Shown here: positions 34,985 to 57,195 of the stretch, piece after piece | How positions within the stretch are numbered: the stretch's first letter is position 1 | How the letters are laid out: each line of letters opens with the position of its first letter | Assembly: GCF_035658495.1 (NCBI RefSeq) | Contig: NZ_CP141944.1 | Span: 1,638,001-1,702,000 of the forward strand | Direction of reading: 5' to 3' | Length of the DNA stretch: 64,000 nucleotides | Source of the DNA: Novosphingobium sp. RL4 | GTDB taxonomy: Bacteria; Pseudomonadota; Alphaproteobacteria; Sphingomonadales; Sphingomonadaceae | Made by a program: the position numbers and the translations under genes | Notes under the pieces: model-generated | The model's input: the letters and a program-made list of their open reading frames with translations, nothing else | Told to the model about the DNA's origin: nothing | Databases searched by the model: none

Positions 34985-35566
34985 ATGCGCCTGAAGATAG
35001 ATGACGATTACTCGTGCGGTCCTACCGGAATTGACGAAGGCGATCCCTTGCCGCCTGAAGATCGCGTCTTGCCTCGCAGGTCCGATTGGCTTGACCGCCT
35101 TTACCGGGCGCAGCGCGACAAGCTCCTGCGCTTCGCGCGGCGGCATACCCGTCCCGACCAGGCGCCCGACGTCATTCAACAACTCTTTCTGCGCCTTGCC
35201 ACCAGGCAAAACGGGGAATTGAAAGTGGAAAGGCCTGACGCCTACTTGCGGCAAGCAACTATCAATCTGATCCGCAATGATGCGCGCTATGCGGAGCGTC
35301 GCTCCGTCAATCTGCACGTCTGCGCCGATGACGTCCCGTTGATAGGAACAGATGCCGTTGCTGCCTACGAGGCGCGGGACATGCTTGCACGGCTTGAAGC
35401 GATCGTTGCAGGATTGGCCCCGCGTACGCGCGAGATATTTCTCGCGCACCGGATCGACGGATTTACATATGGCGAGATCGCGGCGCGAACCGGTCTCAGT
35501 GTGAAGACCGTCGAGAAGCATATGAGCCGGGCGATCGGGCACGTGACCCGGCATCTGGAGCCGTGA
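34985..35566 (+). CDS. ECF RNA polymerase sigma factor (FecI-like)
   Basis: 193 residues from ATG 34985. Sigma region 2 spans about residues 35-103 (DKLLRFARRHTRPDQAPDVIQQLFLRLA, AYLRQATINLIRNDARY) and region 4 about 137-187 (LAPRTREIFLAHRIDGFTYGEIAARTGLSVKTVEKHMSRAI). FecI-like sigma factors act with an inner-membrane FecR protein and an outer-membrane receptor carrying an STN domain; both are encoded next. It likely directs transcription of the receptor-isopeptidase genes and perhaps the lasso genes. Confidence 0.92.
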   Translation: MRLKIDDDYSCGPTGIDEGDPLPPEDRVLPRRSDWLDRLYRAQRDKLLRFARRHTRPDQAPDVIQQLFLRLATRQNGELKVERPDAYLRQATINLIRNDARYAERRSVNLHVCADDVPLIGTDAVAAYEARDMLARLEAIVAGLAPRTREIFLAHRIDGFTYGEIAARTGLSVKTVEKHMSRAIGHVTRHLEP

Positions 35567-35594
35567 TGGGGGATTGTATCTTCGTGGTGGTGGA

Positions 35595-36569
35595 ATGAGC
35601 TTCGAGGAAGAGGTTGATGACTGGTTCGCGCGGATGCGCGGTCCGGAGGCCGAACGATTTCGAGAGGCTTTCGCTGATTGGTATGCGGAACCGCAGAATG
35701 CTGCAGCTTACGAGCGCAGGGTTCGGTCATGGGATACAATCAAGTTCATCACCAACACACCGACCGGAAGGCGCCGACGTCTCGCCATCGCCAAGCCGGC
35801 GTTGCTGAGAACACCCGGAAAGTTAGTTGGCGCGCTGGCAGTTTGCGGGCTCCTTATTGGAACGGTCGCATTTGTAGGAGGACATCGCTGGTCTGCTGGG
35901 CGCCAGCTCTACTCTCGCATGGAAGTGGCGTCGCTTGAGGAGCAGCCTCGAAAACTTGTGCTTCCTGACAGCTCGGCCATCACTCTGGACCGCGGGGCGC
36001 GGATCCAGATATCCTTCGATGCAAGCCAGCGGCGCCTTCGTCTCCTGGCCGGCAGAGCGCGATTTGCGGTTGCGCACGAGGTGGACCGTCCATTCGTGGT
36101 CGAGGCAGGTGAAGGAAGCGTGACAGCTCATGGCACCTTGTTCGATGTCGAGCTCTTGCCGGCGCGAATGAATGTGTCGCTCATCCAGGGAGCAGTCGAG
36201 GTGCAAAGTCGAACGCAGGTATCTGCGGTGAGGGGGCTCGACCTGATGGCAGGCCAAAGGGTCACTATCGCCGGTGGAGTGCTGGGTGTGCCGACCAGCA
36301 CACCGCCAATTGATCGCGCCTGGCCGAATGACATGCTCGTTCTGGACGGCGCGGATCTTGCCGACGCGGTCGCGGCATTCAATAGAACGACGCCGGTTCC
36401 TGTCCTCCTCGAATTCGAAGCTGCCCGCCCCATGAGGGTGACGGGAGCGTTCCGCCGATCCGATCCCGAAGGCTTCGCGAGACAGCTCGCCGCAACATTC
36501 GACCTTGCAGTCCGAGTGCGTCTCGATGGCAGTTTTGCGTTGGTCGATGGGGAGGCCGAAAAAAAATGA
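35595..36569 (+). CDS. FecR-family anti-sigma regulator
   Basis: 324 residues from ATG 35595 (MSFEEEVDDWFARM). Cytoplasmic DUF4880-like N-terminus (FADWYAEPQNAAAYERRVRSW) that would hold the sigma factor, one membrane helix at about residues 77-96 (LVGALAVCGLLIGTVAFVGG), then the periplasmic FecR domain (LPDSSAITLDRGARIQISFD; GRARFAVAHEVDRPFVVEAG). It senses the occupied receptor through the STN domain. It lies 28 nt after the sigma gene, so both form one operon. Confidence 0.92.
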   Translation: MSFEEEVDDWFARMRGPEAERFREAFADWYAEPQNAAAYERRVRSWDTIKFITNTPTGRRRRLAIAKPALLRTPGKLVGALAVCGLLIGTVAFVGGHRWSAGRQLYSRMEVASLEEQPRKLVLPDSSAITLDRGARIQISFDASQRRLRLLAGRARFAVAHEVDRPFVVEAGEGSVTAHGTLFDVELLPARMNVSLIQGAVEVQSRTQVSAVRGLDLMAGQRVTIAGGVLGVPTSTPPIDRAWPNDMLVLDGADLADAVAAFNRTTPVPVLLEFEAARPMRVTGAFRRSDPEGFARQLAATFDLAVRVRLDGSFALVDGEAEKK

Positions 36570-36591
36570 TCACCAGCGGAGGGTGATTTTT
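36561..36591 (+). terminator. Intrinsic terminator candidate at the fecR stop
   Basis: A-tract, ATCACC/GGTGAT stem with a 7-nt loop, then TTTTT. The structure overlaps the stop codon of the FecR gene. It would separate the sigma-fecR transcript from the receptor-isopeptidase transcript, giving the latter its own regulated promoter or read-through control. Confidence 0.45.
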
Positions 36592-36603
36592 CAAACCTGG
36601 TGT

Positions 36604-36648
36604 CTCCGTCCTGAAGGATCTCGCTGAGCGCGGATCCCGGGGACGGAG
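36604..36648 (+). promoter_or_regulatory. 5'-UTR stem-loop covering the receptor ribosome site
   Basis: CTCCGTCC (36604-36611) can pair with GGACGGAG (36641-36648), and GGATC with GATCC inside. The right arm contains the GGAG of the ribosome site that precedes the GTG start at 36657. Pairing would hide the site, so translation of the receptor could be controlled by this fold. Predicted by eye only. Confidence 0.35.
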
Positions 36649-36656
36649 GCTCATAA

Positions 36657-39191
36657 GTGCGTTACCAATATTTGGCGTGCTGCAGCATAGCTGCGGCCGC
36701 GACGACCCTTTGCGCGCCTGTTTCGGCCAGAGCCGAGGCGCGCATCGAAGTTCATCTTCCAGCGCAATCAATGGCGGCATCGCTTCGTGATGTCGGTCGC
36801 CTGTTCGGGCGCAATGTGAGTGTCGACGAAGAGGCTGTGGCAGGTCGGGAAGCCGCTGCTGTCGACGGTAATCTCACATTCGAGGAAGCCTTGGCTGCGG
36901 TCCTTGCCGGAAGTGGCCTCAAGGCCAATTCCTCGCAAGGCGGGGCGGTCATTCATGGACTTGCGCAGAACGAGGGCGACAATGGTACCATCGTCGTCAC
37001 CGGATCTCACATTCGCGGCGCGCCCGTCGCATCGACGACGCTGACGTACAATCGGGAGGAGATGCGCGACGCCGGTCAGTCGTCGGTCGCCGATGTCATC
37101 CGCGCCATTCCGCAGAACTTCGGGGGCGGACAAAATGCCGGGCTTGGATACAACGTTCCATCGGCGAGTGGCGCCGACCTCGATGGCGGTTCTTCGATCA
37201 ACTTGCGCGGGCTCGGTAGCGATGCGACGCTGACGCTGCTGAATGGTCGCAGGATGAGCTACGCCGGTGCTGCACAGGCGGTCGATGTTTCAGCGATACC
37301 GTTTGGTGCGATCGAGCGGATCGATATCGTTCCGGACGGAGCTTCGGCACTGTTCGGCTCTGACGCCGTTGCTGGCGTTGCCAATATCATCCTGCGGCGT
37401 GGTTTCGATGGCCTCGATGCCAGCGCGCGGATCGGCGGATCGACTGATGGCGGCAATTTCCAGCAGCAGTACGGGGTCACTGCCGGTAAAGTCTGGAATT
37501 CAAGGAGCGCGACGTTCGCTTACGAATACGCGCGCACAACGGCCATCGAGGCGGATCAGCGATCCTATGCGGAAGACCGTGTTCCTGGACTGACTCTTTC
37601 GCCTTACTTGCGGCATCACAACGCTTCGTTGGTGCTGCGGCAGAACCTGCTGGGCAACCTGACTTTCGATCTCGACGCGCTCTATAACAGGCGATGGTGG
37701 GAGCAGACGATCCCGCTCAACGCGGCCGGCGATTTGTCGGTGAGCAGGGCGGACTTTACGCGCCCGTCAGAATCCTGGAGCGCCGCGCCGTCGCTGACCC
37801 TGGCTTTGCCAGCTGACTGGCTCGTGACCCTTGGTGGCAGTTATGGCTGGAACCGCTCGAAATTCGGTGGGACTTACGTCTATGGGACCACCAAAATCGA
37901 TGCTTCGTCCGGCATCTACCGCAACGAGACTTCCAACATCGAGTTGTCGGGCAACGGCAAACTTGTTTCGGTTCCGGGCGGCGACATCAAGGCGGCTGTT
38001 GGCGTCGGCTATCGAAAGAGCACCTTCCAGCGCTCAGGTTCCAGCGCGAGTGCTTTTATCGATGCGTCGCAGGATAGTTACTACGCTTTCGGAGAATTGA
38101 GCGTGCCGGTCTTTGGTGCCGGGCAGGCACCGGCGCTGGGTCGAAGTCTCGATCTCAGTCTCGCGGCGCGCTACGAGCGCTATCCCGATGTCGATTCCGT
38201 GGTGACGCCGAAACTGGGGCTGATCTATGCGCCTAGCGCGGACGTTTCGCTCAAGGGAAGTTGGGGAAAATCGTTCCGGACGCCGACGCTCTATGAACAA
38301 TTCAGGCCCGCCACGACTCTGCTCTATAATGCCTCGACACTCGGCGGCACCGGCGGTGGGACCGCAATTTACGTGTCGGGTGGCAATCCTGACCTCAAAC
38401 CCGAACGGTCGACCAACTGGTCAGCGACCCTCGACTTGCATCCGCGGGGGTTGGCGGGCGCCAAGCTTCAGATCACCTATTTCGACATTCACTACCGTGA
38501 TCGCATCGTCTCGCCGATCACCTACGCGTCGCAGTCGCTGTCGAACCCTGCCTATGCCGATTACATAACGCTTGATCCGAGCGCTGTCGAACAGGCGGCC
38601 GCCATCGCCAGGGGCGCGACCTTCACCAATTATACAGGGAGCGCGTACAATCCGAGCACGGTCGTTGCCATCGTCGACAATTCGAACGTCAACGCCGGGC
38701 GGCAAACCGTTCGCGGCGTGGATGTCCTTGCCAGCTATGAATTCGCGCTCGGCAAAGGAACGCTGCGCTCCGCCATCAATGGGAGTTATATCGACAGCAA
38801 GCAGCAGCTGAGTGCGGAACAAGCCGTCACCCCGTTAGCTGGAACGCTGTTCAATCCCCCTCATTTCCGGGGACGCGGCGAGATTTCGTGGAGCCGGGAC
38901 GGACTCTCGCTGCTGGGCGCCTTCAACTACATCGGCCCGGTCCGCGACACACGTTCCACGCCCTCGGTTCGGGTCGCGGGCATGGTGCCCGTCGACTTTA
39001 CGCTTCGCTATTCTCTCGATCACGCAAAGGGCGCGCTCTCCGGCATCGATCTGATTGCCTCGATCCAGAATGCCTTCAACGACAAGCCCAGTTCGATCGC
39101 GATCACGTCGTATTACGACACGCCTTACGACAGTACCAACTACTCGCCCTACGGCCGGGTCCTCAGCCTCACGGTGTCCAAGAAATGGTAA
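36657..39191 (+). CDS. TonB-dependent receptor with STN signalling domain (lasso locus)
   Basis: 844 residues, GTG start. Signal peptide to about residue 26 (APVSARA), STN (secretin/TonB N-terminal) domain about 28-98 (VHLPAQSMAASLRDVGRLFGRNVSV, LTFEEALAAVLAGSGL), TonB box-like TIVVTGSHIRG, plug with SINLRGLGSDATLTLLNGRR, and a barrel to LTVSKKW. The STN domain signals to FecR. In other proteobacterial lasso loci the matching receptor is thought to import the lasso peptide. The stop overlaps the isopeptidase start by 7 nt. Confidence 0.93.
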   Translation: MRYQYLACCSIAAAATTLCAPVSARAEARIEVHLPAQSMAASLRDVGRLFGRNVSVDEEAVAGREAAAVDGNLTFEEALAAVLAGSGLKANSSQGGAVIHGLAQNEGDNGTIVVTGSHIRGAPVASTTLTYNREEMRDAGQSSVADVIRAIPQNFGGGQNAGLGYNVPSASGADLDGGSSINLRGLGSDATLTLLNGRRMSYAGAAQAVDVSAIPFGAIERIDIVPDGASALFGSDAVAGVANIILRRGFDGLDASARIGGSTDGGNFQQQYGVTAGKVWNSRSATFAYEYARTTAIEADQRSYAEDRVPGLTLSPYLRHHNASLVLRQNLLGNLTFDLDALYNRRWWEQTIPLNAAGDLSVSRADFTRPSESWSAAPSLTLALPADWLVTLGGSYGWNRSKFGGTYVYGTTKIDASSGIYRNETSNIELSGNGKLVSVPGGDIKAAVGVGYRKSTFQRSGSSASAFIDASQDSYYAFGELSVPVFGAGQAPALGRSLDLSLAARYERYPDVDSVVTPKLGLIYAPSADVSLKGSWGKSFRTPTLYEQFRPATTLLYNASTLGGTGGGTAIYVSGGNPDLKPERSTNWSATLDLHPRGLAGAKLQITYFDIHYRDRIVSPITYASQSLSNPAYADYITLDPSAVEQAAAIARGATFTNYTGSAYNPSTVVAIVDNSNVNAGRQTVRGVDVLASYEFALGKGTLRSAINGSYIDSKQQLSAEQAVTPLAGTLFNPPHFRGRGEISWSRDGLSLLGAFNYIGPVRDTRSTPSVRVAGMVPVDFTLRYSLDHAKGALSGIDLIASIQNAFNDKPSSIAITSYYDTPYDSTNYSPYGRVLSLTVSKKW

Positions 39192-41305
39192 GTTTGTTCT
39201 CTGGTGGGCTCGCTCTGGCGGGCGCTTTCGTCTTGTCGAATCCGGCGCATGCCGCTTGCGACGATTTGCTTCCAACCGCTGCCGACACGCAAGCCAAGCC
39301 CCGAACCATCACGACGATGGATTTGGCTCGGCTCCGGGACATTGGGTATCCGGACGCCACCGGCGACGCCAGCAGTCCCTACGCCCTCTCACCGGACCGG
39401 ACGTCGATAGCGTTCGTGATATCGCGGGGCGATCCTAAATCGAACCAGTACTGCTCGGCACTGGTCGTCATGCCGATCAGCGGCAATGGCGCGGCTCGGA
39501 TCCTCGACCGGGGTGGTGCCATCCCCAGAATGTCCGCTCCGTTTCGTAATCTCTACATTACCACGGGCTTTCCGGAGCTTATCGTTCCGATCTGGTCTCC
39601 AGACGGCAAGTCGATCGCTTACCGCAAGCTGATCGATGGGGTTGTTCAGTTGGCGCGAGCCCGTGCCGACGGCAGCGGCGCGCAAGTGGCCACGCACGAA
39701 ACGAGCAACGTAGAGGATTTCGTCTGGTCGGCTGACAGCGCGCGCCTGATCTATTTCACGCGGCCAGGCCGTCAGTTGGCGAAGGACAAGATAGCGCGGG
39801 AAGCGCCTTCGGGCTGGCTTTACGACAAGAGCATCCTGCCAATGCAATCGTGGGAGCCGCAACCCTGGGCTTCGGACCTCGTGCGCAAGAGCTTCGTGGC
39901 GGACCTGTCGTCGGGCGCGATCCGGCCCGCTTCCCCCGAGGAGGAAAAGGCGGTCACCGTGCCTCCTTCGCCTGGCGCGCCGTACGAAATGAGCGTCACA
40001 AACGAAGCCGGCAGCATGGCATGGACAGCGCCTGTCGGGACGCATCCCGCCGCCGATCGCAAGGTGTGGGCGCAGTTTCCCGACGGTGCAAAAATTCCCT
40101 GCAAGGGAGAAGGATGCGACGGCAGGATTTCCAGACTCTATTGGGAAAAGGGCGGGCAGTCGGTGGTCTACCTTGGCCTTGAGGGCTGGGACAGGGAGGA
40201 ATACGTCCTCCACCGCTGGTTTCCCAAGACTGGTCGTCTCACCACCATTCTGCGGACAACCGATGCGCTTACGGGCTGCATCTTTGCAGGTTCAGAACTC
40301 ATATGTGGCCGCGAGAACGCCACCACGCCCCGGCGCATCGTGGGGGTAAACCTTGCGTCGGGGCGGAGCCGCGTGATCTTCGACCCCAACCCGGAATTCG
40401 CTGCGTTCCGACTGGGCAGAGTCACCCGGCTCAAATTCTCGAGTGCCGCCGGACTACCTGCCTGGGGCGATCTTGTCCTCCCGCCTGACTATGACGGTAA
40501 GGGCAAGCTGCCACTCGTCATCGTGCAGTATCAGAGCAGAAGCTTCCTGAGGGGAGGGGTGGGCGACGATTACCCGATCTTTCCAATGGCAGCGAAGGGG
40601 CTGGCGGTATTGAGCTTCAATCGGCCGCCGGACGTTGCCGACAGCGATCCCTCGGTGAAAACCTGGGAAGAGAACCGCGCTGCCAGCCGGCGAAACTGGG
40701 CTGACCGAAGAAGCATTCTTTCGGCGCTGGAAGACGGGATCGATGCCGCGATAGCTACCGGCGTAATCGATCCGGAGCGCATTGGAATCAGCGGTCTGAG
40801 TGACGGAGCGTCGACGGTAGAGTTTGCGCTGGTCAATTCTCGGCGTTTCAAGGCGGCAGCGATGAGCACCTGTTGCGACGATCTCCTCACGCAGACCGTT
40901 TTGGGAGGATTTGCCTGGGGCGAGGAAAACCGGCGCGGCGGGATACCCGCGTCCGTCGATAACGATCGCGAATACTGGAAGCCTATTTCGCTTTCGATCA
41001 ACGCTCGAAAGATCGATACCCCCATCCTCATGCAGGTTGCCGATCGAGAAGCATCACTCGGTTTGCCGGCGATGGGCGCGCTCGTAGAAGCCGACAAACC
41101 GCTGGAGGTTTTCGTCTTCGATGATGAATACCACAACAAGTGGCAGCCTGCGCACCGGCTGGCGATTTATGACCGCGATATCGACTGGTTCAGGTTCTGG
41201 CTCAGCGACTATCGGGATCCTGCGCCGGAGAAGCGAGGCCAGTATGCGCGTTGGGATATCCTCCGCGCGAAGGCCAAGTCGGCGGTGGCGACGACAAGTC
41301 CCTGA
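39185..41305 (+). CDS. Lasso-peptide isopeptidase (AtxE-type prolyl oligopeptidase family)
   Basis: 706 residues from ATG 39185, which sits inside the last codons of the receptor gene. Signal peptide MVSLFSGGLALAGAFVLSNPAHA, beta-propeller-like N-terminal part, C-terminal alpha/beta hydrolase. The nucleophile is Ser539 in GISGLSDGAS; Glu622 (VADREAS) and His650 (DEYHNKW) complete the triad. The spacings 83 and 28 equal those I recall for AtxE2 (Ser527-Glu610-His638). This family linearises lasso peptides by cleaving the ring isopeptide bond after uptake. The 3' end overlaps the convergent cyclase gene by 104 nt. Confidence 0.93.
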   Translation: MVSLFSGGLALAGAFVLSNPAHAACDDLLPTAADTQAKPRTITTMDLARLRDIGYPDATGDASSPYALSPDRTSIAFVISRGDPKSNQYCSALVVMPISGNGAARILDRGGAIPRMSAPFRNLYITTGFPELIVPIWSPDGKSIAYRKLIDGVVQLARARADGSGAQVATHETSNVEDFVWSADSARLIYFTRPGRQLAKDKIAREAPSGWLYDKSILPMQSWEPQPWASDLVRKSFVADLSSGAIRPASPEEEKAVTVPPSPGAPYEMSVTNEAGSMAWTAPVGTHPAADRKVWAQFPDGAKIPCKGEGCDGRISRLYWEKGGQSVVYLGLEGWDREEYVLHRWFPKTGRLTTILRTTDALTGCIFAGSELICGRENATTPRRIVGVNLASGRSRVIFDPNPEFAAFRLGRVTRLKFSSAAGLPAWGDLVLPPDYDGKGKLPLVIVQYQSRSFLRGGVGDDYPIFPMAAKGLAVLSFNRPPDVADSDPSVKTWEENRAASRRNWADRRSILSALEDGIDAAIATGVIDPERIGISGLSDGASTVEFALVNSRRFKAAAMSTCCDDLLTQTVLGGFAWGEENRRGGIPASVDNDREYWKPISLSINARKIDTPILMQVADREASLGLPAMGALVEADKPLEVFVFDDEYHNKWQPAHRLAIYDRDIDWFRFWLSDYRDPAPEKRGQYARWDILRAKAKSAVATTSP

Positions 41306-43034
41306 TCTCTCGGGCCCATTTTTCGGCGTCCATTAATCTGACGATCCGGCCAAATTCCTGCCCCTGGAATGGGGCCGGATCGTCCAGTATCCTGAGCACC
41401 GAGGACGAGCATATCACGCCTTCGTTGGCGAGAAGGCCATCGAGCAGATTGTCGCGGATGTAAGACCGATTGGCTTCGAACATTCGAACTACGAAACTGT
41501 CGGGCATTCCCTTGCCGCGCCTCCAAACGACCTCATGCGGTAGGTTTCGATCGAATGCGCGCCGAGCGACGGCACGGTTGCAGCCGTTCTCGAACCAGTG
41601 CCAGCTTGGGATCGAGAGGCAATGCTCAATAAGCGGTTGCGAGACGAGCGGGGAAACAACCTTATCCTTGGTTCCGGCGGGACCATCCTCGATAAAGCTC
41701 TGGGCAGCTACCAGGAGAGCGATCTGGCCGGCACGACCCGGCAAGCGCTCCTCATTGTCGGCAAGCCAGGGATGCAATTTCCTATTGCGCGCCGTTTGCA
41801 CTGCTGCGGGCGGTAGCAGACTACTGCTGGTGGACCAGCGATACGGGCGGGATCTGTGGGCGGCTCGAGACAAGGCCTTCCACGCGACGTGCCAGACCGA
41901 TGCGTGGGCCATTTCACCGATTTCCTGACATGTTCGCCAAAAGGCGGTGAGGCTGTGTCCGCCGAGAAGGCAGTCGGCGGCTGGTGATGCAGACTGGAGT
42001 GAGCAGAACACATTGTCTCCGCCTCCGCCATCTACGATTGCGTCACATCCAAGCTCAGCGGCTACGGTCTGCGCATCCTGGAATAGGCGTTGCTCGAAAC
42101 CTCGCGCCACCGGGCGCGGCAGGCGGGAGGCTGGGAGACTCTCGAGGCCCAGTGCCTGATCAGGCATATTCCTCTCTGTCAGCTCGCGGGCAGCAAAGCT
42201 CGCAACTGCGCGTGCGTAGTTTCGCTCATCGCCCGCAGCAGCGGGCGCCACGAGATTGAGGCATGCAAACTCACGGCCGCGTGCGGCGAGGCAAGCCGCA
42301 AGAATCGAGGAGTCGAGGCCGCCGGATAGCATGACGAGTGGATTGCTGGTTCTCGAGGTCTTTGCGGCAACGCAGCTGATCGCGAGCTCGCGAAGAATCT
42401 GCTCATTGAGGTCTGCGGCTGTGGCCCTCCTTGAACTCTGCGGAACCATCCAAGGTGACCACAAGGTCTCGTGCGTTGCGCTCTTGCCGGAGAATACGGC
42501 AACCTCGCCGCCTCGCACTTCGTGAACCCCCGTGATGCAGGTTTCGGCACTGCGCATGTCGCCCGCATAGAGTTGGAAAGCCACTCCGCCATAATCAACC
42601 GAGTTTGCCATGTCGGAGGCCCAGGCGAGCGTATCGATGTCGGAGGCAACGATGGTAGCGCCCGCGTTGCTGCGGTAAAGACAGGGCAGGGCGCCGAAAG
42701 GGCTGCGAAGCAGAAATGCCGCATCCTGCGCGCGGATTACGGCAACCCAATCACCCCAGTAGCGCTCGATCAGCCTGCGGCCGTTCGTCTGCAGAATTTT
42801 GTCGCACTCTTGCGGGGGCAGAACGGTAATCCGTTTCATCCGGTCGCGGCAGTAAACGGCGCCGACGATCAAGCCTGCATCGAGCAGTCGTATCGCTTCA
42901 ACACCATGAGAGGCGCAAGCGAATAGGCCGGGGCGATCGATCGGGGCAGGAGAGGCGGCCACGATTGAACGCGATCTCAGCCTTGCTTGCTCTTCCTGCC
43001 CAAGATTGATGCCGATTGTGAACCGCTGAGCCAT
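41202..43034 (-). CDS. Lasso-peptide cyclase (asparagine-synthetase-like, C protein)
   Basis: 610 residues from ATG 43034, joined to the B gene by TAATG. The N-terminal part resembles the glutaminase-like half of class B asparagine synthetases without its N-terminal Cys. The PP-loop SGGLDSS is at residues 237-243 and DGGGGDNVF follows. The enzyme adenylates the Asp8 side chain of the core peptide and closes the ring on Gly1. No ABC exporter gene (D protein) follows; isopeptidase genes take that place, as in the astexin-type loci. The last ~35 codons lie antisense to the isopeptidase gene. Confidence 0.93.
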   Translation of the reverse strand: MAQRFTIGINLGQEEQARLRSRSIVAASPAPIDRPGLFACASHGVEAIRLLDAGLIVGAVYCRDRMKRITVLPPQECDKILQTNGRRLIERYWGDWVAVIRAQDAAFLLRSPFGALPCLYRSNAGATIVASDIDTLAWASDMANSVDYGGVAFQLYAGDMRSAETCITGVHEVRGGEVAVFSGKSATHETLWSPWMVPQSSRRATAADLNEQILRELAISCVAAKTSRTSNPLVMLSGGLDSSILAACLAARGREFACLNLVAPAAAGDERNYARAVASFAARELTERNMPDQALGLESLPASRLPRPVARGFEQRLFQDAQTVAAELGCDAIVDGGGGDNVFCSLQSASPAADCLLGGHSLTAFWRTCQEIGEMAHASVWHVAWKALSRAAHRSRPYRWSTSSSLLPPAAVQTARNRKLHPWLADNEERLPGRAGQIALLVAAQSFIEDGPAGTKDKVVSPLVSQPLIEHCLSIPSWHWFENGCNRAVARRAFDRNLPHEVVWRRGKGMPDSFVVRMFEANRSYIRDNLLDGLLANEGVICSSSVLRILDDPAPFQGQEFGRIVRLMDAEKWAREIRDLSSPPPTWPSRGGYPNAHTGLASPAQDPDSR

Positions 43035-43681
43035 TACAGCACCGCGATCGGTGTGTAGTGGGCTGCGATCTCGAGACGTTCGTTCACCAGGACGTCTCGC
43101 CACTGCACCCAGGCGTGAGCTCTAAACGGCGGCATGCCGATACCGATTACGACGTCAGCAGCCGCGCCTGCGGCATAGAGGCTTCGCGCGACCGCAATTG
43201 CATAGGCAAGGCATCGGTCGTGCGACCCGATTAGCCCGATGCATCGGCGATATGCGTCGGCGATGACTGCGACCGCAAGGAGATCGGCTTGGTCCTCTGT
43301 CGGCTTTATCCTGACCATCGAGGCAAGCGTTTGGGCGAGGCCACGGCGCTGCAAACTGCTTTGGGCGTAAAGGAAACGGGCGCACATCCGGGCGAGAGCC
43401 AGCCGACCGCCCGAGGATGCATCCTGCTCAAGCGCACTGCGAAGTGCTGGCTTCTTGCTGCATTCGCGGAAGACAAAAGGGCTTGCCGCCCGTCTGACGA
43501 TGCCCGTTTTTGCGAGAATGGCACGCTCGAATTCGGCGATAGGCTCGCCAGCGGAGGCTCTGCTGAAGACATTTTCGGCCTCGCGCGAGAGGCAGAAGTA
43601 ACGGTCGGCTGGAATGTCGAGGAATACGATCCGATCAGCCAGCCGGCAGAATGTGAGACCCTCACGTAGAGACGTGGTCAT
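43034..43681 (-). CDS. Lasso-peptide B protein: RRE fused to transglutaminase-like protease
   Basis: 215 residues. Residues about 8-80 are the PqqD-like RiPP recognition element (GLTFCRLADRIVFLDIPADRYFCLS) that binds the leader. Residues about 95-215 are the leader peptidase with Cys157 (HDRCLAYA) and His189 (FRAHAWVQW); the acid could be Asp196 or Glu201 and is not obvious. In actinobacteria these parts are separate B1 and B2 proteins; the fused form is the proteobacterial one. No strong ribosome site precedes ATG 43681, which would keep B lower than the precursor. Confidence 0.93.
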   Translation of the reverse strand: MTTSLREGLTFCRLADRIVFLDIPADRYFCLSREAENVFSRASAGEPIAEFERAILAKTGIVRRAASPFVFRECSKKPALRSALEQDASSGGRLALARMCARFLYAQSSLQRRGLAQTLASMVRIKPTEDQADLLAVAVIADAYRRCIGLIGSHDRCLAYAIAVARSLYAAGAAADVVIGIGMPPFRAHAWVQWRDVLVNERLEIAAHYTPIAVL

Positions 43682-43719
43682 GTAGGTAATCCCGGAAGCG
43701 AGGAGCGATCAGGGCGGAA

Positions 43720-43745
43720 GGATGCGCGGCATGCGCCGCGCATCC
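43720..43745 (-). terminator. Conserved hairpin between precursor A1 and B
   Basis: 11-bp perfect stem GGATGCGCGGC/GCCGCGCATCC with an ATGC loop, 7 nt after the A1 stop. Precursor A2 has the same stem in the same place with one compensated base pair change (G-C to A-T). It probably acts as an attenuator or 3' stabiliser that makes precursor mRNA more abundant than BC mRNA. Confidence 0.7.
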
Positions 43746-43751
43746 TCGTCG

Positions 43752-43871
43752 TCAGTCGTCCGAAAGGCCGGGCTGGTTCTGAGCAAGGACGAAGTCGCCG
43801 CCGGTGCCGATCGGGCCCTTGGTCTCGACGCTGGCAGTGCCAAGGTCGATCGTATCGCTTTCCTGTACCAT
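43752..43871 (-). CDS. Lasso-peptide precursor A1
   Basis: 39 residues; too short for ordinary gene calling. GAGGAA lies 8 nt before ATG. Leader MVQESDTIDLGTASVETK (18 residues) carries the conserved Thr at the penultimate position. Predicted core of 21 residues begins GPIGTGGD, giving an 8-residue Gly1-Asp8 macrolactam, then a 13-residue tail starting at Phe9 and ending GLSDD. It sits directly upstream of B and C on the same strand. Core boundary follows the Thr(-2) rule of the family; the mature product could be trimmed at the C-terminus. Confidence 0.92.
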   Translation of the reverse strand: MVQESDTIDLGTASVETKGPIGTGGDFVLAQNQPGLSDD

Positions 43872-43888
43872 GTCACATTCCTCGTTTG

Positions 43889-43952
43889 CTGCCGCGATAT
43901 TGCGGCAGAGGAATGATGCTGCGATTCGCGAATTATAAAAAATTTATAATAA
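43889..43952 (-). promoter_or_regulatory. A1 promoter block and 5'-UTR stem-loop
   Basis: Stem CTGCCGC/GCGGCAG with a 6-nt loop at 43889-43908, then a 19-nt block reading TATAAAAAATTTATAATAA on the plus strand at 43934-43952. The AT block starts 63 nt upstream of the A1 start. Both elements recur upstream of A2 at the same distance (62 nt). It is likely the promoter core and leader of the precursor transcript. Confidence 0.6.
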
Positions 43953-44073
43953 CTTTATATTATTCGCTAAATCTGCTTTTAGTTCGAAAAATGCATTAGC
44001 TAATTGGATAAATGCGTCGCAGTTCGTGATTAGGCTATACTTATTGAGCTTTGGACTATGAGGATCTGTCATT

Positions 44074-44340
44074 TTAACTAATGGTGTCGCTGCGTCGCCG
44101 CGTTACCTTCCGGTTTGCGCCTTCTTTCACTGTCGCCGATTTGCGCACGGCGTCGAAGAAATCGAGAATGTCGGCATCGTGAAGCCTTAGGGCCTCGCTC
44201 CAACTGCTGGAATAAATCGCCCTGCCCTCCGGGACGCAGTCGGGATCGAACATCACAGGATGATGGTCGTACAACTCGCGGTCGTTGTGCTTGATGCAGT
44301 AGGCGGTCGTTCTAAGGCGTTCGAGACGATCCTTGTCCAC
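44074..44340 (-). CDS. Hypothetical protein, 88 residues
   Basis: I do not recognise this protein. It reads from GTG 44340 (AAGGG 6 nt upstream) with a hydrophilic sequence including CIKHNDRELYDHHPVMFDPD and LRLHDADILDFFDAVRKS, ending in a basic tail. The open frame continues to a TTG at 44391, so it could be a fragment of a longer gene cut off when the hydrolase segment was inserted. It lies between the A1 promoter and the serine hydrolase gene. Could also be non-coding. Confidence 0.35.
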   Translation of the reverse strand: MDKDRLERLRTTAYCIKHNDRELYDHHPVMFDPDCVPEGRAIYSSSWSEALRLHDADILDFFDAVRKSATVKEGANRKVTRRRSDTIS

Positions 44341-44432
44341 TGCAAACCCTTGTCCTCGCAGTTTACCGTAGGCCTTGTTGCACCTGTACAAGGGCCGCTC
44401 TTCAGGACTTGTTCTTCATCTGACGACCACAT

Positions 44433-44448
44433 ATGTAGGCGCCTACAT
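44433..44448. promoter_or_regulatory. 16-bp palindrome, likely MarR operator
   Basis: ATGTAGGCGCCTACAT, a perfect 16-bp palindrome immediately upstream of, and touching, the possible hydrolase start codon at 44447. The hydrolase gene is followed by a MarR gene in the same operon, so autoregulation through this site is likely. Confidence 0.55.
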
Positions 44449-44464
44449 GAGCGGGGTGGTTTCG

Positions 44465-45784
44465 ATGAGCGGTCGCATGACAAGAAGGGGGGTTATGGGC
44501 GGAGCCGTAGGACTGGGCGTGTTGAGCTGGGGCGGGCCTAGTCTCGCAGCGGGCGCCGGAGGCTCCATCGCCGCTCGTTTGGATGCCGCCGTGGAACAGG
44601 CGATAATAGATGCAGATTTCTCTGGCGCCTTGATGCTGAAACGCGGCGACCAGGTCGTCTATCAGCGCGCAGTGGGGCAGGCCGATCGGGTGTTCGGCGT
44701 GGCGAACCGCATCGCCGCGCGATTCAACGTCGCTTCCATCGGCAAGATGTTCACCGCCACGGCGATCCTGCGTCTGGCCGAACAAGGGCGAGTCGACCTG
44801 GACGCCCCGGTCCTCCGCTATCTGCCCGACTATCCGGCCCCAGCCATCGCCGGCCGGATCACGGCACGTCAGCTACTGTCGCACAGCTCTGGCATCGGAA
44901 ACTACTGGGAGGCGATCGCGCAGAAGCCGTCCCAGGCCTTCGTCGAGACTCGCGACTTCCTGCCTTTGATCGCCGACCAGCCACTGGAGTTCACGCCCGG
45001 AGAGCGGTTCGGCTACTCCAACGGCGGCTATGTGATCCTGGGCTTGATCGTCGAGGCCTTGACCGGCGAAGTCTACGCAGATCACATCAGGCGCACGATC
45101 TTCGAGCCCCTTGGCATGAGCGGCAGCGGCGACTGGCCACTCGATCTCGTGGTGCCTAACCGGGCCGACGGCTACACACGCGACGAGGCCGTCCCTGGCG
45201 CTTGGCGCAACAACCTTTTCGTCAACCAGTTCCGGGGCGGTCCGGCGGGCGGCGGCTATTCGACCGTCGAGGACCTGTCGACCTTCATCGCCGCTCTGGG
45301 CGACGGTCGGCTCCTGTCGCCGCAGATGCGCGCCACCGCGACCGCTGGCCTGTTCGATCGGGGCCGCGGGCGTTACGGCCTGGGGTTCGTGGAGGAGACT
45401 GTCAACGGCCACCGCATGGTGGGCAACACCGGCGGCCATTTCGGCATCGCCGGCGAGGTTTGGGGCTATCAGAATCTGGGCTACACCTTCGCCATGCTGT
45501 CCAATGGCGAGGTCGATGGGTACTGGGCCATGAATGTTGCGGCGAAGGATATCCTGTGCGGACCCGGCCCGGCGACTGACGCCTATCATCTGGGCATGGC
45601 GATGGCCGTGGCGGCAAGGGACGTCAGCGTGGGCGCCGCCCGGACCCTGTTCGACACGAGGCCGCAGGGCCTGAAACCAAGCTCGGTCTTCGAGGTCGAG
45701 GCGGCGAAAGCCCGCCATCGCGGAAATCCGGCCGGCGCTGATCGGATCATGGCGATCGCCGCTATCGCCGAGCCCCCGACATGA
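44465..45784 (+). CDS. Serine hydrolase, beta-lactamase class C family
   Basis: 439 residues from ATG 44465 (GGGGTGG upstream; ATG 44447 is possible). N-terminus with twin Arg (MTRRGVMGGAVGLGVLSWGG) looks like a Tat or Sec signal. Catalytic SxxK motif ASIGKMF, YxN motif YSNGGYV and a C-terminal HxG-like GGHFG identify the serine beta-lactamase/DD-peptidase/esterase fold. Substrate unknown; many such proteins are esterases or D-aminopeptidases. GC-rich codon use and its own MarR regulator suggest a cassette inserted between the two lasso precursors. Confidence 0.88.
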   Translation: MSGRMTRRGVMGGAVGLGVLSWGGPSLAAGAGGSIAARLDAAVEQAIIDADFSGALMLKRGDQVVYQRAVGQADRVFGVANRIAARFNVASIGKMFTATAILRLAEQGRVDLDAPVLRYLPDYPAPAIAGRITARQLLSHSSGIGNYWEAIAQKPSQAFVETRDFLPLIADQPLEFTPGERFGYSNGGYVILGLIVEALTGEVYADHIRRTIFEPLGMSGSGDWPLDLVVPNRADGYTRDEAVPGAWRNNLFVNQFRGGPAGGGYSTVEDLSTFIAALGDGRLLSPQMRATATAGLFDRGRGRYGLGFVEETVNGHRMVGNTGGHFGIAGEVWGYQNLGYTFAMLSNGEVDGYWAMNVAAKDILCGPGPATDAYHLGMAMAVAARDVSVGAARTLFDTRPQGLKPSSVFEVEAAKARHRGNPAGADRIMAIAAIAEPPT

Positions 45785-46275
45785 CCGATCTGAAGGGCGG
45801 CCACGGCGCGACCATAGGCGCCCAACTGCGCCGCTTGTCGGAGCGGATCGACCGCGATGTGAGCCGCGTCTACAAGCACTTGGGCATCACCTTCGAGCAG
45901 CGATGGTTCGGGGTCCTGAACCAGATCGTCGAGAACGGGCCGATGACGGTGGGCCATCTCGCCGCCGCCCTGAGGGTGACCCACGTCTCGGTCAGCCAGT
46001 CGCTGCGCTCACTGGAAGCGGCCGGCTATGTGCGGGCGCTGCCCGATCCCCTGGACGCGCGTCGTCGCAGACAATCCCTGACTGGAGAAGGCGAGGCGCT
46101 GGTTGCTCGCCTGACCCCCCTATGGCTCGCCATGAACAGCGAGGCTGAGGCCCTAAATCGCGAGGCGGATGACGTTGCCGCCCGGCTGAACCGGCTGGAC
46201 GAGGCCCTGGACCGCAACACCTTGTACAACCGGCTGATCGCCGTGGTGGAGGTAATGGACAAAAATCAAGCGTAG
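45781..46275 (+). CDS. MarR-family transcriptional regulator
   Basis: 164 residues; ATG overlaps the hydrolase stop (ATGA). Winged-helix motif MTVGHLAAALRVTHVSVSQSLRSLEAAGYV and wing DPLDARRRRQSLTGEG. Probable regulator of its own operon through the palindrome at 44433-44448. The 125-nt gap that follows up to the IS element has no gene. Confidence 0.88.
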   Translation: MTDLKGGHGATIGAQLRRLSERIDRDVSRVYKHLGITFEQRWFGVLNQIVENGPMTVGHLAAALRVTHVSVSQSLRSLEAAGYVRALPDPLDARRRRQSLTGEGEALVARLTPLWLAMNSEAEALNREADDVAARLNRLDEALDRNTLYNRLIAVVEVMDKNQA

Positions 46276-46400
46276 TTGACGCTGACTGGAATGCGTTCGG
46301 ATTTCGCCACGTTCAACAGGCACTTCGCGGCGCAACCAGCTCGTCCGCCAGACTCTACCAGCGCGCAGCGCCAAGTAGATGCGCTGCTGTCCAGCTTTAG

Positions 46401-47746
46401 CAGGCTGCGGAAAAAGGCGCTTGCCTTGATGTGGCATTGCTGATTCCAGGATCCCGTCGAGGGATGTTGAAGGGATCGGGATGCGCGGCGGTGATGAACG
46501 GAGCGAGGGGCTGTTCTCGTACGTGAGTTGCGAGGCTCGGGTGCCGGCGAACCATGCTCTTCGCGCGATCCGGGCGATTGTCGATGAAGCGCTCGAAGTG
46601 CTGTCCGCGGACTTCGACGGCCTGTATTCTCGTATCGGGAGGCCGTCGATCCCACCCGAGAAACTTCTTCGGGCCTTGCTCCTGCAGGCCTTCTATTCGA
46701 TCCGCTCGGAACGCCAGTTGATGGAGCAGATGGACTACAACCTGCTCTTTCGCTGGTTCGTCGGCCTGGCGATGGATGCGCCGATCTGGGATGTCACGGT
46801 CTTCACCAAGAACCGCGAGAGGCTGCTGTCCGGGGACGTTGCCGCCAAGCTCCTGTCGGCCATCATCAACCAGCCACGCGTGCAGGCTCTTCTTTCGGAC
46901 GATCATTTCTCGGTGGACGGCACGTTGATCGAAGCGTGGGCAAGCGCGAAAAGCTTCAGACCCAAGGATGAAGGCGGCCCCGGAGATGACGATGACGCCG
47001 GGTTGGCTTCCAGCCGCAGCGAGCAGGCAACAGCGCCGACCGACCGTAATGCCGAACGCGATTTTCGCGGCGAGAAGCGCAGCAATGCAACCCATGCATC
47101 GACCACAGATCCTGATGCCCGACTATTCAAGAAGGCGCGCGGCCAGGCAGCGAAGCTGTGCCACATGGGCCATGTCCTGATGGAGAACCGCAACGGCCTC
47201 GTCGTCGATGCGATCCTCACCCACGCCACCGGCACCGCCGAACGCGAGGCCGCGCTGACCATGTTGGGCCGCATGGAAGGACGCCACCGGATTACACTGG
47301 GCGCGGACAAGAACTACGACACCGCCGCCTTCGTCGCGGCGCTGCGCGAGATGGAGGTCACCCCGCACGTAGCCCAGAACAACACCAACCGGCGCTCCGC
47401 CATCGACAGGCGCACGACACGCCATCCCGGCTACGGCCTCTCCCAGAAAATCCGCAAGCGGATCGAGGAGGTGTTCGGATGGACGAAGACCTGCGGCACC
47501 ATGCGAAAGACCCGCCATCGAGGCCAGGACCGCGTCGGATGGTCCTTTACGCTCACCGCTGCCGCCTACAACCTCATCAGACTGCCAAAACTTCTGGCCG
47601 CGGCCTAATCGTGTCGCTCACGTCACCACGACCGCGCCAACGTGGTCGGTATCTCCGAATTTCACCCTGAAACGAGCGACAGACCAGTCCCCCTCCTTCG
47701 AACGCAGATCGACGGTGACCACTGCGGCGCCTTTTTCCGCAGCCTG
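46401..47746 (+). mobile_element. IS5-family insertion sequence, complete
   Basis: 1346 bp bounded by identical 20-bp terminal inverted repeats, CAGGCTGCGGAAAAAGGCGC at 46401-46420 and its complement at 47727-47746. The flanks carry a TTAG direct repeat (46397-46400 and 47747-47750), fitting the YTAR target of IS5-type elements. It contains one transposase gene. Perfect ends and an intact gene suggest a recent insertion. It lies in the segment that separates the two lasso precursor genes. Confidence 0.92.
46481..47608 (+). CDS. IS5-family DDE transposase
   Basis: 375 residues. N-terminal DUF772-type domain (RIGRPSIPPEKLLRALLLQAFYSIRSERQLMEQMDYNLLFRWFVGL), then the DDE catalytic residues: Asp in SVDGTLIEAWAS, Asp in TLGADKNYDT and Glu in the Y-x-R-E region ending RIEEVFGWTKT. 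Intact, with no frameshift. It is the only gene of the element. Confidence 0.95.
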   Translation: MRGGDERSEGLFSYVSCEARVPANHALRAIRAIVDEALEVLSADFDGLYSRIGRPSIPPEKLLRALLLQAFYSIRSERQLMEQMDYNLLFRWFVGLAMDAPIWDVTVFTKNRERLLSGDVAAKLLSAIINQPRVQALLSDDHFSVDGTLIEAWASAKSFRPKDEGGPGDDDDAGLASSRSEQATAPTDRNAERDFRGEKRSNATHASTTDPDARLFKKARGQAAKLCHMGHVLMENRNGLVVDAILTHATGTAEREAALTMLGRMEGRHRITLGADKNYDTAAFVAALREMEVTPHVAQNNTNRRSAIDRRTTRHPGYGLSQKIRKRIEEVFGWTKTCGTMRKTRHRGQDRVGWSFTLTAAAYNLIRLPKLLAAA

Positions 47747-48027
47747 TTAGACGTCTCGGCATGTCCGCTCCCCACCGAGGCTGCGTGAAAACGTGCCTTC
47801 AGTTCTAATTGGAAGAGACCGTTTGAAAATTCGCCAAAGCGAATTTTGCGGCACCAGCCCACTCCTCCATCCGACTGCCCATCGTCTGTATACTGTTGGT
47901 GGGGGAGGGGGCGCTCAATCTTGTCGGAGCGTGTTTCCTGCCGCCAATGCAAGAAGCTTCCCATCGATAGCGAGGCAGTGGCTGCCAATCATCCGCGCCG
48001 TCAGGGAAGGTCGAGAATCGGGCGGTC
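47747..48027. other. Spacer between the IS element and precursor A2
   Basis: 281 nt with no convincing gene. If A2 once had its own B and C genes they would be expected here, but I see no B-like reading frame in it. It may be residual sequence from the original A2-A1 spacer or from the inserted cassette. Confidence 0.35.
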
Positions 48028-48052
48028 GGATGCACGGCGGGGCCGTGCATCC
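48028..48052 (-). terminator. Conserved hairpin after precursor A2
   Basis: 11-bp stem GGATGCACGGC/GCCGTGCATCC with a GGG loop, 7 nt after the A2 stop. It is the counterpart of the hairpin at 43720-43745; the A-T pair here replaces a G-C pair there, which is a compensating change. This supports a selected RNA structure after each precursor. Confidence 0.7.
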
Positions 48053-48059
48053 TGGCGCG

Positions 48060-48179
48060 TCAGTCGTCGGACAAGCCCGGCATGTTCTGGCACAGGACCA
48101 TGTCGCCGCCCTCTCCGAGCGAGCCTTTGGTTCCGATACTGGCGGCGCCCAGTTCGATCGTGTCGTCTTCGCGTTCCAT
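48060..48179 (-). CDS. Lasso-peptide precursor A2
   Basis: 39 residues, GAGGAG 6 nt before ATG. Leader MEREDDTIELGAASIGTK with Thr at -2; predicted 21-residue core begins GSLGEGGD (Gly1-Asp8 ring) and ends GLSDD. It matches A1 at 11 of 18 leader and 15 of 21 core positions; core differences are at 2, 3, 5, 9, 12 and 15. Position 12 is Cys, the only Cys in either precursor. No B or C gene is adjacent, so processing probably uses the enzymes encoded at 41202-43681. Confidence 0.9.
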   Translation of the reverse strand: MEREDDTIELGAASIGTKGSLGEGGDMVLCQNMPGLSDD

Positions 48180-48197
48180 GTCATTCTCCTCGCTATC

Positions 48198-48259
48198 TGC
48201 CGCGGAAATGCGGCACGAAAGGATGACCCGGTTTACAGAATATAAAAAATTTATAATAA
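48198..48259 (-). promoter_or_regulatory. A2 promoter block and 5'-UTR stem-loop
   Basis: Stem TGCCGC/GCGGCA (48198-48215) with a 6-nt loop, and the same 19-nt AT block as before A1 (48241-48259, TATAAAAAATTTATAATAA on the plus strand), starting 62 nt from the A2 start. It occupies the space between A2 and the upstream GntR gene stop (48262). Confidence 0.6.
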
Positions 48260-48261
48260 GA

Positions 48262-48891
48262 TTATAGATTTTCAGAAGTATTGTCTGATCTGTCGGAAAT
48301 CTTGTAAATTGATGTAACCAGCTTTCTTGCGTTGCTTAGGCGGCGTGAATGATACTTGCGCAATTCACCGGTCAGGGTGGATCGAGGGTGCTGGGTGGCG
48401 CTTATAATGGTTTTGATTTCGGAACGTCGGTCTCCAAGCACCTGCGCTTCGGCTGAGCGAGCGACCATCAGGCGGTCATTGGCAGAGGCAATCTGTGCTG
48501 TGATCTCCGGGCGAGCCGATTTTTGCGCAATGGCGGCAAATAGCGACGCTGCATCGTTGGCGGCATTCGCCGGAATTCGACGCGTATCGTCGTCGCTGTA
48601 TTTCCAGGTCGGTGAGGCCACCGCCAAGCGAAGCACTTCGAAGTTCCAGCGATAGAGGTCCATCAACATGACCTCCGTCATGACCGGCAGGTGGAAGCCG
48701 GTGTTCTTGCGCATTTCGACAACCCGCTCTCCAGCAAGACGAAGAAGTGCCTCGCGCACCGGTGTCACGCCGGCCGAGAGCTCTGCGCCGAGCTTGACTG
48801 GATCGAGCCGCTGGCCGGGGGCGATAGCCCCCGACAGGACCAGGCGCTTGACCTCTTCATAGGCAAGTTCAGCTCGTGTTCCGGCATTCAT
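48262..48891 (-). CDS. GntR-family transcriptional regulator
   Basis: 209 residues from ATG 48891, which overlaps the phyH stop (ATGA). Winged HTH at about residues 8-70 (AYEEVKRLVLSGAIAPGQRLDPVKLGAELSAGVTPVREALLRL), typical of the FadR/FCD branch. The helical C-terminal part is about 130 residues and lacks most of the metal-binding His residues of classical FCD domains. It is cotranscribed with luxI and phyH, and precursor A2 follows 83 nt downstream, so it may control the lasso precursor promoter. Confidence 0.85.
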   Translation of the reverse strand: MNAGTRAELAYEEVKRLVLSGAIAPGQRLDPVKLGAELSAGVTPVREALLRLAGERVVEMRKNTGFHLPVMTEVMLMDLYRWNFEVLRLAVASPTWKYSDDDTRRIPANAANDAASLFAAIAQKSARPEITAQIASANDRLMVARSAEAQVLGDRRSEIKTIISATQHPRSTLTGELRKYHSRRLSNARKLVTSIYKISDRSDNTSENL

Positions 48892-50428: not shown

Positions 50429-50462
50429 CTAACTGTATCCTACAGGTGTAGGATACAGTTAG
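50429..50462. promoter_or_regulatory. 34-bp inverted repeat between luxR and luxI (lux-box or terminator)
   Basis: Arms CTAACTGTATCCTACA and its complement around a central GG, 16 bp each, overlapping the luxR stop codon. The position upstream of luxI suits a LuxR-binding lux box that would give positive feedback. As RNA it is also a strong hairpin at the end of luxR. No U-run follows, so an operator is preferred. Confidence 0.6.
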
Positions 50463-51286: not shown

Positions 51287-51414
51287 TGCCGACTTTCATT
51301 CCGGCAGGGCGATGCGGTTTGGTCGCTAGTCTATTGTAATGCATTCATTTTAGCGCGCAATCGCCTAAATGTCATTAAAGTGTCATTTTTATTCCGCCGT
51401 ATTGGCGGGGCTAT

Positions 51415-57154: not shown

Positions 57155-57195
57155 GAATCCAAGGCGCAAGGCAGGCGTTTTCCGCCAAGCCAATA

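Follow-up and report, generated by a model that had tools for sequence, protein, structure and literature searches.

What would switch on a lasso peptide cluster that lies beside the genes of a quorum-sensing system? The question is raised by a 64,000-nucleotide stretch of the genome of Novosphingobium sp. RL4 (contig NZ_CP141944.1, positions 1,638,001 to 1,702,000 of the forward strand; hereafter the window), in which an earlier note, made from the letters alone, had marked positions 34985..48179 as a lasso peptide locus with two precursors. We found that the lasso cluster is real, but that its conserved neighbourhood extends to about 52.2 kb, past 48179. The earlier reading had missed a GntR–PhyH–LuxI–LuxR half, a leader RNA before the precursors and the mobile DNA that separates one precursor (A2) from the other (A1) and the biosynthetic genes B and C. 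Our preferred reading, to which we give a probability of about 0.62, is that quorum-gated GntR control and a translation-gating leader govern a peptide which the cell exports, recaptures and then linearises.

The lasso genes and the quorum module

The open reading frames of the marked interval are true family members rather than chance frames, and Pfam and NCBIfam matches recovered all the core parts named earlier, namely the sigma factor, FecR, the STN receptor, the isopeptidase, the cyclase, B and two precursors (Table 1). The isopeptidase, whose ATG overlaps the receptor stop, scored 750 bits against a cut-off of 400 in the NCBIfam model 'Atxe2 family lasso peptide isopeptidase', and its top PDB matches were the AtxE2 entries 5txc and 5txe (3.6e-133 and 9.9e-133). 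In an alignment spanning residues 32–700, S539, E622 and H650 fell on chain residues 527, 610 and 638, with spacings of 83 and 28 in both proteins, so that the Ser-Glu-His triad of the AtxE2 family is present, as the earlier note had claimed. We take S527, E610 and H638 to be the catalytic residues of AtxE2, and the alanine that 5txe carries at the position aligned with S539 supports this. B passed the lasso_biosyn_B2 model (59 bits, cut-off 33); its C157 and H189 are invariant in 65 of 65 aligned B proteins, and its third protease residue, Glu201, lies at a position that holds D in 53 of them and E in 12. The cyclase, C, has an open frame that begins at 43103 and an ATG at 43034 that overlaps the end of B. 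Despite scoring below the cut-offs of all NCBIfam lasso/macrolactam cyclase models, its assignment is safe because of its genomic place and its relatives: it shares 44–57% identity with the C proteins of the four closest lasso loci in the genus, and S260, G261, G262, D264 and S265 of its SGGLDS motif are invariant among 20 sequences.

Both precursors, of 39 residues each, passed the NCBIfam model 'benenodin family lasso peptide' (47.5 and 41.4 bits, cut-off 33), and their translations carry Thr(-2), Gly1 and Asp8, in agreement with the rule that the earlier note had applied to them. The cluster is predicted to encode two 21-residue lasso peptides, with monoisotopic masses (core minus water) of 2038.96 Da for A1 and 2075.86 Da for A2. 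We regard the cluster as beyond chance because family cut-offs were passed, the precursor region is duplicated over about 210 bp and the gene order is kept in relatives; judged by sequence, the window locus is confirmed as an isopeptidase-type (benenodin/AtxE2) lasso cluster. No ABC transporter was found among the open reading frames tested between 34.9 and 52.2 kb, as the earlier note had said of an exporter. This is normal here because such clusters, as described in the relevant passages of a review (PMC9266682), generally lack an ABC transporter, with one exception; the same passages place GntR before the precursor and the TonB receptor and sigma/anti-sigma genes after the isopeptidase. The core architecture, including GntR and the absent exporter, is thus already known, and the original finding by itself is a further member of a known family. 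It is the quorum module and the leader that make this variant worth testing.

The genes gntR, phyH, luxI and luxR lie upstream of A2 on the same strand, with luxI overlapping phyH and phyH overlapping gntR. The LuxI residues R28, F32, W38, D50, D53, R74, E104 and R107 are invariant in 22 sequences; we take these eight positions to be the conserved catalytic residues of the family. Its domain and these residues make it a predicted acyl-homoserine-lactone (AHL) synthase, and it did not reach the NCBIfam TraI-type cut-offs. A further candidate neighbour gene, 'orf263' (51392–52180, minus strand), was dropped as a low-complexity frame opposite the RovC/DUF2285 gene.

Operator-like repeats stand before both luxI and the precursors. 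The palindrome TATCC-N10-GGATA occurs once exactly in the window, and with one mismatch allowed there were two matches against 0.51 expected. Across loci, the best match to this lux-box before luxI averaged 7.78 of 10 positions, compared with 6.18 in single-base shuffles, and it reached at least 8 of 10 in 35 of 58 loci. At eight other genes the scores were close to those of shuffles, with PhyH slightly higher (6.43 versus 5.99), and a search before the sigma gene found no enrichment. The second repeat, TTATAA-N5-TTATA, occurs in the window solely at the two precursor promoters, with eight overlapping matches against 0.02 expected, and [TG]TATAA was present in 39 of 54 precursor upstream regions, where shuffles gave a mean of 4.3 and at most 11.

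A leader RNA before the precursors

Directly 5' of most of the promoter-proximal precursors examined lies a hairpin, GC[C/T]GC-A...-GC[G/A]GC, and the sequences on either side of it pair with the ribosome-binding region. Its stem is 5–8 bp long, its loop varies from 4 to 9 nucleotides and its position next to the start codon is fixed. In the window, the A1 leader folds at -23.8 kcal/mol (z -3.45). We aligned 43 leaders, after dropping six secondary tandem precursors without a leader and leaving out L068, L099, L100 (duplicates), L104 and the group L116–L122/L149, which has a related but different hairpin, and found the helix with RNAalifold. In this alignment, 98.6% of the cells of the inner helix are paired and 27 cells are changed on both sides, whereas slid versions of the helix pair only 14–66%. 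Its covariation, 0.401, exceeded the 0.227 ± 0.018 of shuffled alignments, none of 500 of which reached it. Two measures were weaker: double-change pairs numbered four, a value reached by 10 of 500 shuffles, and further pair types six, reached by all 500. The L116–L122 and L149 loci carry a second leader type, a hairpin with a GTCGC arm, and have their quorum unit beyond the sigma gene.

We then compared the pairing of each outer arm with the ribosome-site side of its own leader and of others. Own arms paired at a mean of -10.0 kcal/mol, compared with -7.87 ± 0.31 when arms were swapped between loci (0 of 5,000 swaps reached it); L150, which has no clear stem, was left out, and in 31 of 42 leaders the own arm was better than the swapped mean. 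A covariance model (R1) built from the alignment and run on 23 held-out loci gave 25 matches in which all cells were paired and covariation was 0.307, versus 0.177 ± 0.021 in shuffles (0 of 500), in an alignment that was itself fitted to the model; double-change pairs numbered two, reached by 107 of 500 shuffles. The arm test on these matches gave -9.52 versus -7.56 ± 0.44 kcal/mol (0 of 5,000, n = 21) after four matches without a confirmed downstream precursor, two of them not inspected, had been dropped. This replication is not fully independent because some held-out loci lie near each other or near training rows (L159–L161 and L067, L162/L163, L123/L124). The leader has the marks of a cis-regulatory RNA: a covarying helix at a conserved position and, across the population, pairing with the ribosome site beyond chance.

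One possible alternative is that the leader merely stabilises a strongly translated mRNA, as a 5' hairpin with a strong ribosome site, and gates nothing. Precursors would be expected in excess over B and C, and a second hairpin follows A, both of which fit such a role; stabilisation alone would not, however, need own outer arms that pair better than swapped ones, and we consider this explanation rather unlikely. It is also improbable that the hairpin is a DNA operator, that is, a protein-binding palindrome rather than an RNA element. Palindromic operators too show matched changes, and a stem of this length is short, but an operator whose half-sites are at a fixed spacing would not usually have a loop of varying length, the position beside the start codon does not vary and the pairing of the outer arms with the ribosome-site side exceeded permutation chance in two sets of leaders.

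R1 was then used to search across the genus. At 31 bits or more, 37 of 41 matches lay within 3.5 kb of C. Of the 21 matches at training loci, 20 did so, the exception being the one at A2 of the window, 5.1 kb from C; of the 20 held-out matches, 17 did so, and one held-out match (G024) is almost identical to one of the training rows. Among the three held-out matches left over, two were followed by lasso precursors near contig ends, and the third (G171) by none. At 28–31 bits, four of five matches were near C; below 28 bits the count was 6 of 32 among the matches listed. With the model, precursor genes were also found on two contigs that had no cyclase in the genus scan (L153, L155), and no lasso precursor followed the third match in the RL4 genome itself (contig C2, 27.7 bits). 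By itself, R1 is weakly specific. No Rfam family matched at gathering score in the window and five relatives, nor did anything match at the leaders at E values up to 1; no dedicated literature search for the leader was made. A twister-sister match at 45683–45752, seen at a relaxed Rfam threshold, had an E value of 0.33, below cut-off, and was taken as chance. The leader is a real feature of sphingomonad lasso precursors and is found also at loci without LuxI within 25 kb (L062, L067).

Linkage across genomes and the place of the two precursors

Is the quorum module tied to the lasso genes, or does it only lie beside them? In the genus scan of 195 genomes (C matches at E up to 1e-30, LuxI matches at E up to 1e-5), 69 genomes carried C (98 loci) and 71 carried LuxI (104 matches); 58 genomes had both, 11 C only, 13 LuxI only and 113 neither, giving a Fisher value of 1.6e-25 for co-occurrence with relatedness ignored. 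The two genes lay within 25 kb of each other for 62 of 98 C loci and 64 of 104 LuxI matches, where a rough calculation, about 50 kb in 5 Mb per pair, puts chance linkage at the order of one percent. Of the 20 relatives whose C matched best, 18 had LuxI at most 10 kb from C (9.8 kb in G057, G031 and G024). In a family sample of 387 genomes, 57 of 110 C matches of at least 178 bits were linked to LuxI, and 54 of 76 LuxI matches of at least 246 bits were linked to C, compared with 3 of 74 weaker ones among the matches listed, a contrast that is partly built in because the LuxI profile was made from 22 mostly lasso-linked sequences. The linked high-scoring matches span 26 genus codes.

In the loci that we fetched, GntR was present in 65 of 65 stretches with C (on the other strand in L108 and L109) and LuxI in 50 of 65; these counts are not rates because many loci were fetched for being linked. 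In 52 of the 53 loci that have LuxI as well as GntR, LuxI, PhyH where present and GntR follow one another without interruption on the same strand, and the median gap to GntR is 18 nucleotides. The exception is L103, from Sphingobium terrigena, in which GntR lies beside the precursor and PhyH–LuxI beyond the sigma gene. The quorum unit takes three geometries: in front of A–B–C in the window and most other loci, beyond sigma in one orientation (L113–L115, L119–L121, L147, L149) or beyond sigma in the opposite orientation (L116–L118, L122). Distance matrices over 43 loci correlated at 0.79 for LuxI–LuxR, 0.78 for LuxI–GntR, 0.53 for LuxI–C, 0.64 for GntR–C and 0.84 for C–B (0 of 500 permutations reached each value), with relatedness not removed. 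The quorum-coupled variant of the lasso cluster is common in sphingomonads. In L142 and L148, LuxR–LuxI adjoin TonB receptor–FecR–sigma genes in stretches with no recognised B or C.

These data bear on whether the window holds an ordinary isopeptidase-type lasso cluster whose quorum genes are passive island neighbours and whose palindromes are incidental. Such an explanation would account for the two best-C relatives (G030:C3 and G138:C2) and the 36 of 98 genus C loci in which the core cluster has no LuxI within 25 kb, for sphingomonad luxI-phyH units in stretches without lasso genes (L139, L141, L143, L144, L146) and for the island-like absence of four window segments (1.0–9.9, 30–37, 43.6–52.5 and 55–63.9 kb), as near-identical matches, from the same-species genome G062. 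It is opposed by the fact that most lasso loci in the genus show the linkage, which extends over 26 genus codes in the family sample and three geometries, and by a GntR gene that accompanies every C locus fetched and is contiguous with luxI in nearly all loci that have both; we think it doubtful. The species-mate G062 lacks this cluster, with a best C match of 29% identity and no LuxI match, and the region 1000–63900 looks strain-specific; a different lasso precursor, which has a leader of its own (L170), is present in G062. Elsewhere in the window, 55197–59429 encodes an ArdC-like antirestriction protein and a protein with a ParB domain, both characteristic of plasmids or integrated elements, and 61837–62742 a fused nucleotidyltransferase–HEPN protein, as in toxin–antitoxin-like pairs. 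No match to the A1 region was found in plasmid DNA; the B protein is present in eight plasmid records, each below 60% identity.

A1, A2 and their upstream regions form a duplication of about 210 bp (43750–43959 and 48058–48266, 73–75% identical) that begins where gntR ends. The two precursors lie 4.3 kb apart, separated by 4.1 kb of DNA with a hydrolase gene, a MarR gene and an IS5 element, which are probably insertions, because precursor spacing is short in relatives. The hydrolase reached none of the NCBIfam cut-offs for class C beta-lactamase families, and DNA similar to the IS5 element occurs on other contigs of the relatives G029 (85%) and G035 (90%). Since A1 has its own upstream repeats and leader, A1–B–C can function although separated from A2. 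It is unlikely that A2 is a non-functional copy, severed from B and C, and that A1 is the sole product. The distance and the chance that the enzymes do not accept both cores speak for this reading, but the frame of A2 is intact, its upstream repeats, leader and hairpin are in place, its family score passes the cut-off, and B and C could act in trans.

Precursors often occur in tandem. Of 65 loci with B, 48 yielded a precursor in a pattern search that demanded D/E at position 8 or 9 and G/A/S/C at position 1, in a stretch that excluded the window's A2, and 9 of these 48 had two or three precursors. All 54 distinct cores of relatives have Gly1 and 49 of them D/E at position 8, although the pattern partly presupposed both. 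The A2 core holds Cys12, whereas none of 59 other predicted cores, A1 included, has a cysteine. Neither predicted core occurred in the open full texts searched, which agrees with the suggestion of the earlier note that the core sequences may not have been described.

Table 1 Features of the lasso–quorum locus, in window coordinates
Feature	Position	Strand	Evidence
ECF (extracytoplasmic function) sigma factor, FecI-like	34985..35566	+	Pfam PF08281 4.1e-16; PF04542 marginally below cut-off
FecR-type anti-sigma/sensor	35574..36569	+	PF04773 1.2e-16
TonB-dependent receptor with N-terminal STN signalling domain, plug and barrel	36657..39191	+	PF07660, PF07715, PF00593
Lasso peptide isopeptidase, AtxE2 family	39185..41305	+	PF00326; NF033523 750 bits; PDB 5txc/5txe
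C, Asn-synthetase-like lasso cyclase	41202..43034	-	PF00733 9.8e-21
B, fused leader-binding and Cys protease (C157, H189, E201)	43034..43681	-	PF13471; NF033537 59 bits
A–B intergenic GC-rich hairpin	43719..43746	-	12-bp perfect inverted repeat; fold
Precursor A1, predicted core GPIGTGGDFVLAQNQPGLSDD	43752..43871	-	NF033522 1.2e-12
A1 leader RNA, inner hairpin and anti-Shine-Dalgarno arm	43869..43931	-	model R1 37.9 bits (training row)
TTATAA repeats upstream of A1, candidate GntR operator/promoter	43933..43960	-	pattern search
Serine hydrolase, beta-lactamase fold	44447..45784	+	PF00144 3.5e-58
MarR-type regulator	45781..46275	+	PF12802 1.3e-13
IS5-family element, 23-bp inverted ends	46398..47749	+	transposase 46481–47608; NF033581 277 bits (cut-off 140)
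Hairpin after A2, counterpart of A–B hairpin	48028..48052	-	sequence; fold
Precursor A2, predicted core GSLGEGGDMVLCQNMPGLSDD (with Cys12)	48060..48179	-	NF033522 9.7e-11
A2 leader RNA	48177..48238	-	model R1 33.3 bits (training row)
TTATAA repeats upstream of A2	48240..48267	-	pattern search
GntR-family regulator	48262..48918	-	PF00392 2.5e-11
PhyH-type Fe(II)/2-oxoglutarate dioxygenase	48888..49778	-	PF05721 2.4e-20; ATG 49778
LuxI-type AHL synthase	49768..50394	-	PF00765 1.1e-18
Lux-box-like palindrome TATCC-N10-GGATA, between luxR and luxI	50436..50455	.	exact match
LuxR-type receptor (autoinducer-binding and GerE domains)	50459..51286	-	PF03472 1.6e-25, PF00196 1.7e-13
RovC-type/DUF2285 regulator, divergent from luxR	51575..52204	+	PF10074 1.7e-12

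A proposed chain of control

From these features, we infer the following chain. AHL made by LuxI would load LuxR, which, at the box before luxI, would turn on luxI-phyH-gntR. GntR would then act at the TTATAA repeats before each precursor, and the outer arm of the leader hairpin, by pairing with the ribosome-binding site, would make translation a second gate. B would cut off the leader peptide and C would join Gly1 to Asp8. Once the peptide had left the cell, the STN receptor may recapture it, perhaps with a ligand, and signal through FecR to the sigma factor as feedback, and the isopeptidase would linearise the recaptured peptide.

Several observations weigh against this chain. The lux-box pattern was read by eye in the same loci that were later used for counting, and it showed no enrichment before gntR or within 140 nucleotides upstream of B (precursor promoters were not separately tested), so LuxR may not reach the precursors directly. 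The TTATAA repeats are a candidate GntR operator because GntR is the regulator common to these clusters, an assignment that is a guess from co-occurrence. The A2 leader folds only moderately (z -1.97), and in 11 of 42 leaders the own arm was no better than the swapped-arm mean. In a class-wide search of 289 genomes, R1 matches of up to 35 bits occurred in 11 genomes other than RL4 and none of the 11 had a precursor in the following frame; R1 alone is thus not specific outside this family, and we make no claim beyond sphingomonads. The 36 C loci of the genus without nearby LuxI, at least one of which (G049) is cut by a contig end, indicate that quorum coupling is not essential, and in L062 and L067 GntR as well as the leader is present without LuxI within 25 kb. 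Finally, an AHL effect in the opposite direction has been suggested for capistruin of B. thailandensis, a lasso peptide whose expression has been linked to AHL; according to a passage of PMC6963729, the link would run indirectly, through the repressor ScmR. As described there, the capistruin cluster (capABCD) is of the exporter type without an isopeptidase, unlike that of the window, and the link to AHL, which for the window is a proposal, is their common ground.

The closest known systems share parts of the arrangement. Like the benenodin and astexin clusters, the window has an isopeptidase-type gene set and order, no ABC transporter, an AtxE2-family isopeptidase and NF033522 precursors; it differs from them in its new cores, in precursors 4.3 kb apart with an insertion sequence and a hydrolase between them, in LuxR–LuxI–PhyH before gntR and in the leader RNA. 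A plasmid of Sphingomonas paeninsulae (NZ_CP032828.1, 135–154 kb) has, by PGAP names, DUF2285–LuxR–AHL synthase–PhyH–GntR–benenodin–B2–AsnB–isopeptidase–TonB–FecR–sigma, which is the window's order, but with one annotated precursor and nothing between precursor and B. Its DUF2285 gene is at the place that matches window 51575–52204. On plasmids of Blastomonas RAC04 and Asticcacaulis DW145, the stretch shown holds a lasso cluster that includes GntR and lacks LuxI; for Blastomonas, this stretch ends within GntR.

In the literature, antiSMASH labelled a 'Hserlactone/Lassopeptide' hybrid in Qipengyuania pacifica NZ-96 and Citromicrobium JL477 in which, as in the window, one region encodes an AHL synthase, B, C, an isopeptidase and a TonB receptor; the relevant passage of PMC9318849 gives an annotation only, without conservation, operators, a leader or a regulatory model. 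The novR-novI-phyH quorum units described in Novosphingobium (parts of PMC3704786 and PMC4288048) share the luxR-luxI-phyH order and orientation of the window, and 'lasso' occurs nowhere in the main text of either paper. In Sphingomonas BPH, a Tn5 insertion in B of the sphingocin cluster abolished phenanthrene use (PMC11006600). As in the window, that cluster has a benenodin-family precursor, B, C, an isopeptidase, a TonB receptor and no exporter; unlike in the window, it has one precursor with another core, and quorum genes are unmentioned in the section on the cluster. We found no account of the conservation of the LuxI–lasso link in the literature searched, mainly open texts.

A wider idea, which we put forward tentatively and with less confidence than the chain itself, is that sphingomonad lasso peptides might be an output arm of AHL quorum sensing. 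A movable LuxR–LuxI–PhyH–GntR cassette would be wired to them in three arrangements, with an undescribed family of ribosome-site-sequestering RNA leaders as the post-transcriptional gate, and peptide and receptor would together act as a density-dependent second signal or a scavenger. The role of isopeptidase-type lasso peptides has been called enigmatic (in a passage of PMC9266682). Ties to quorum sensing and to a ribosome-site leader would give concrete on-switches, namely AHL, GntR and the leader, with which silent clusters could be activated and the purpose of these lasso peptides could be tested directly.

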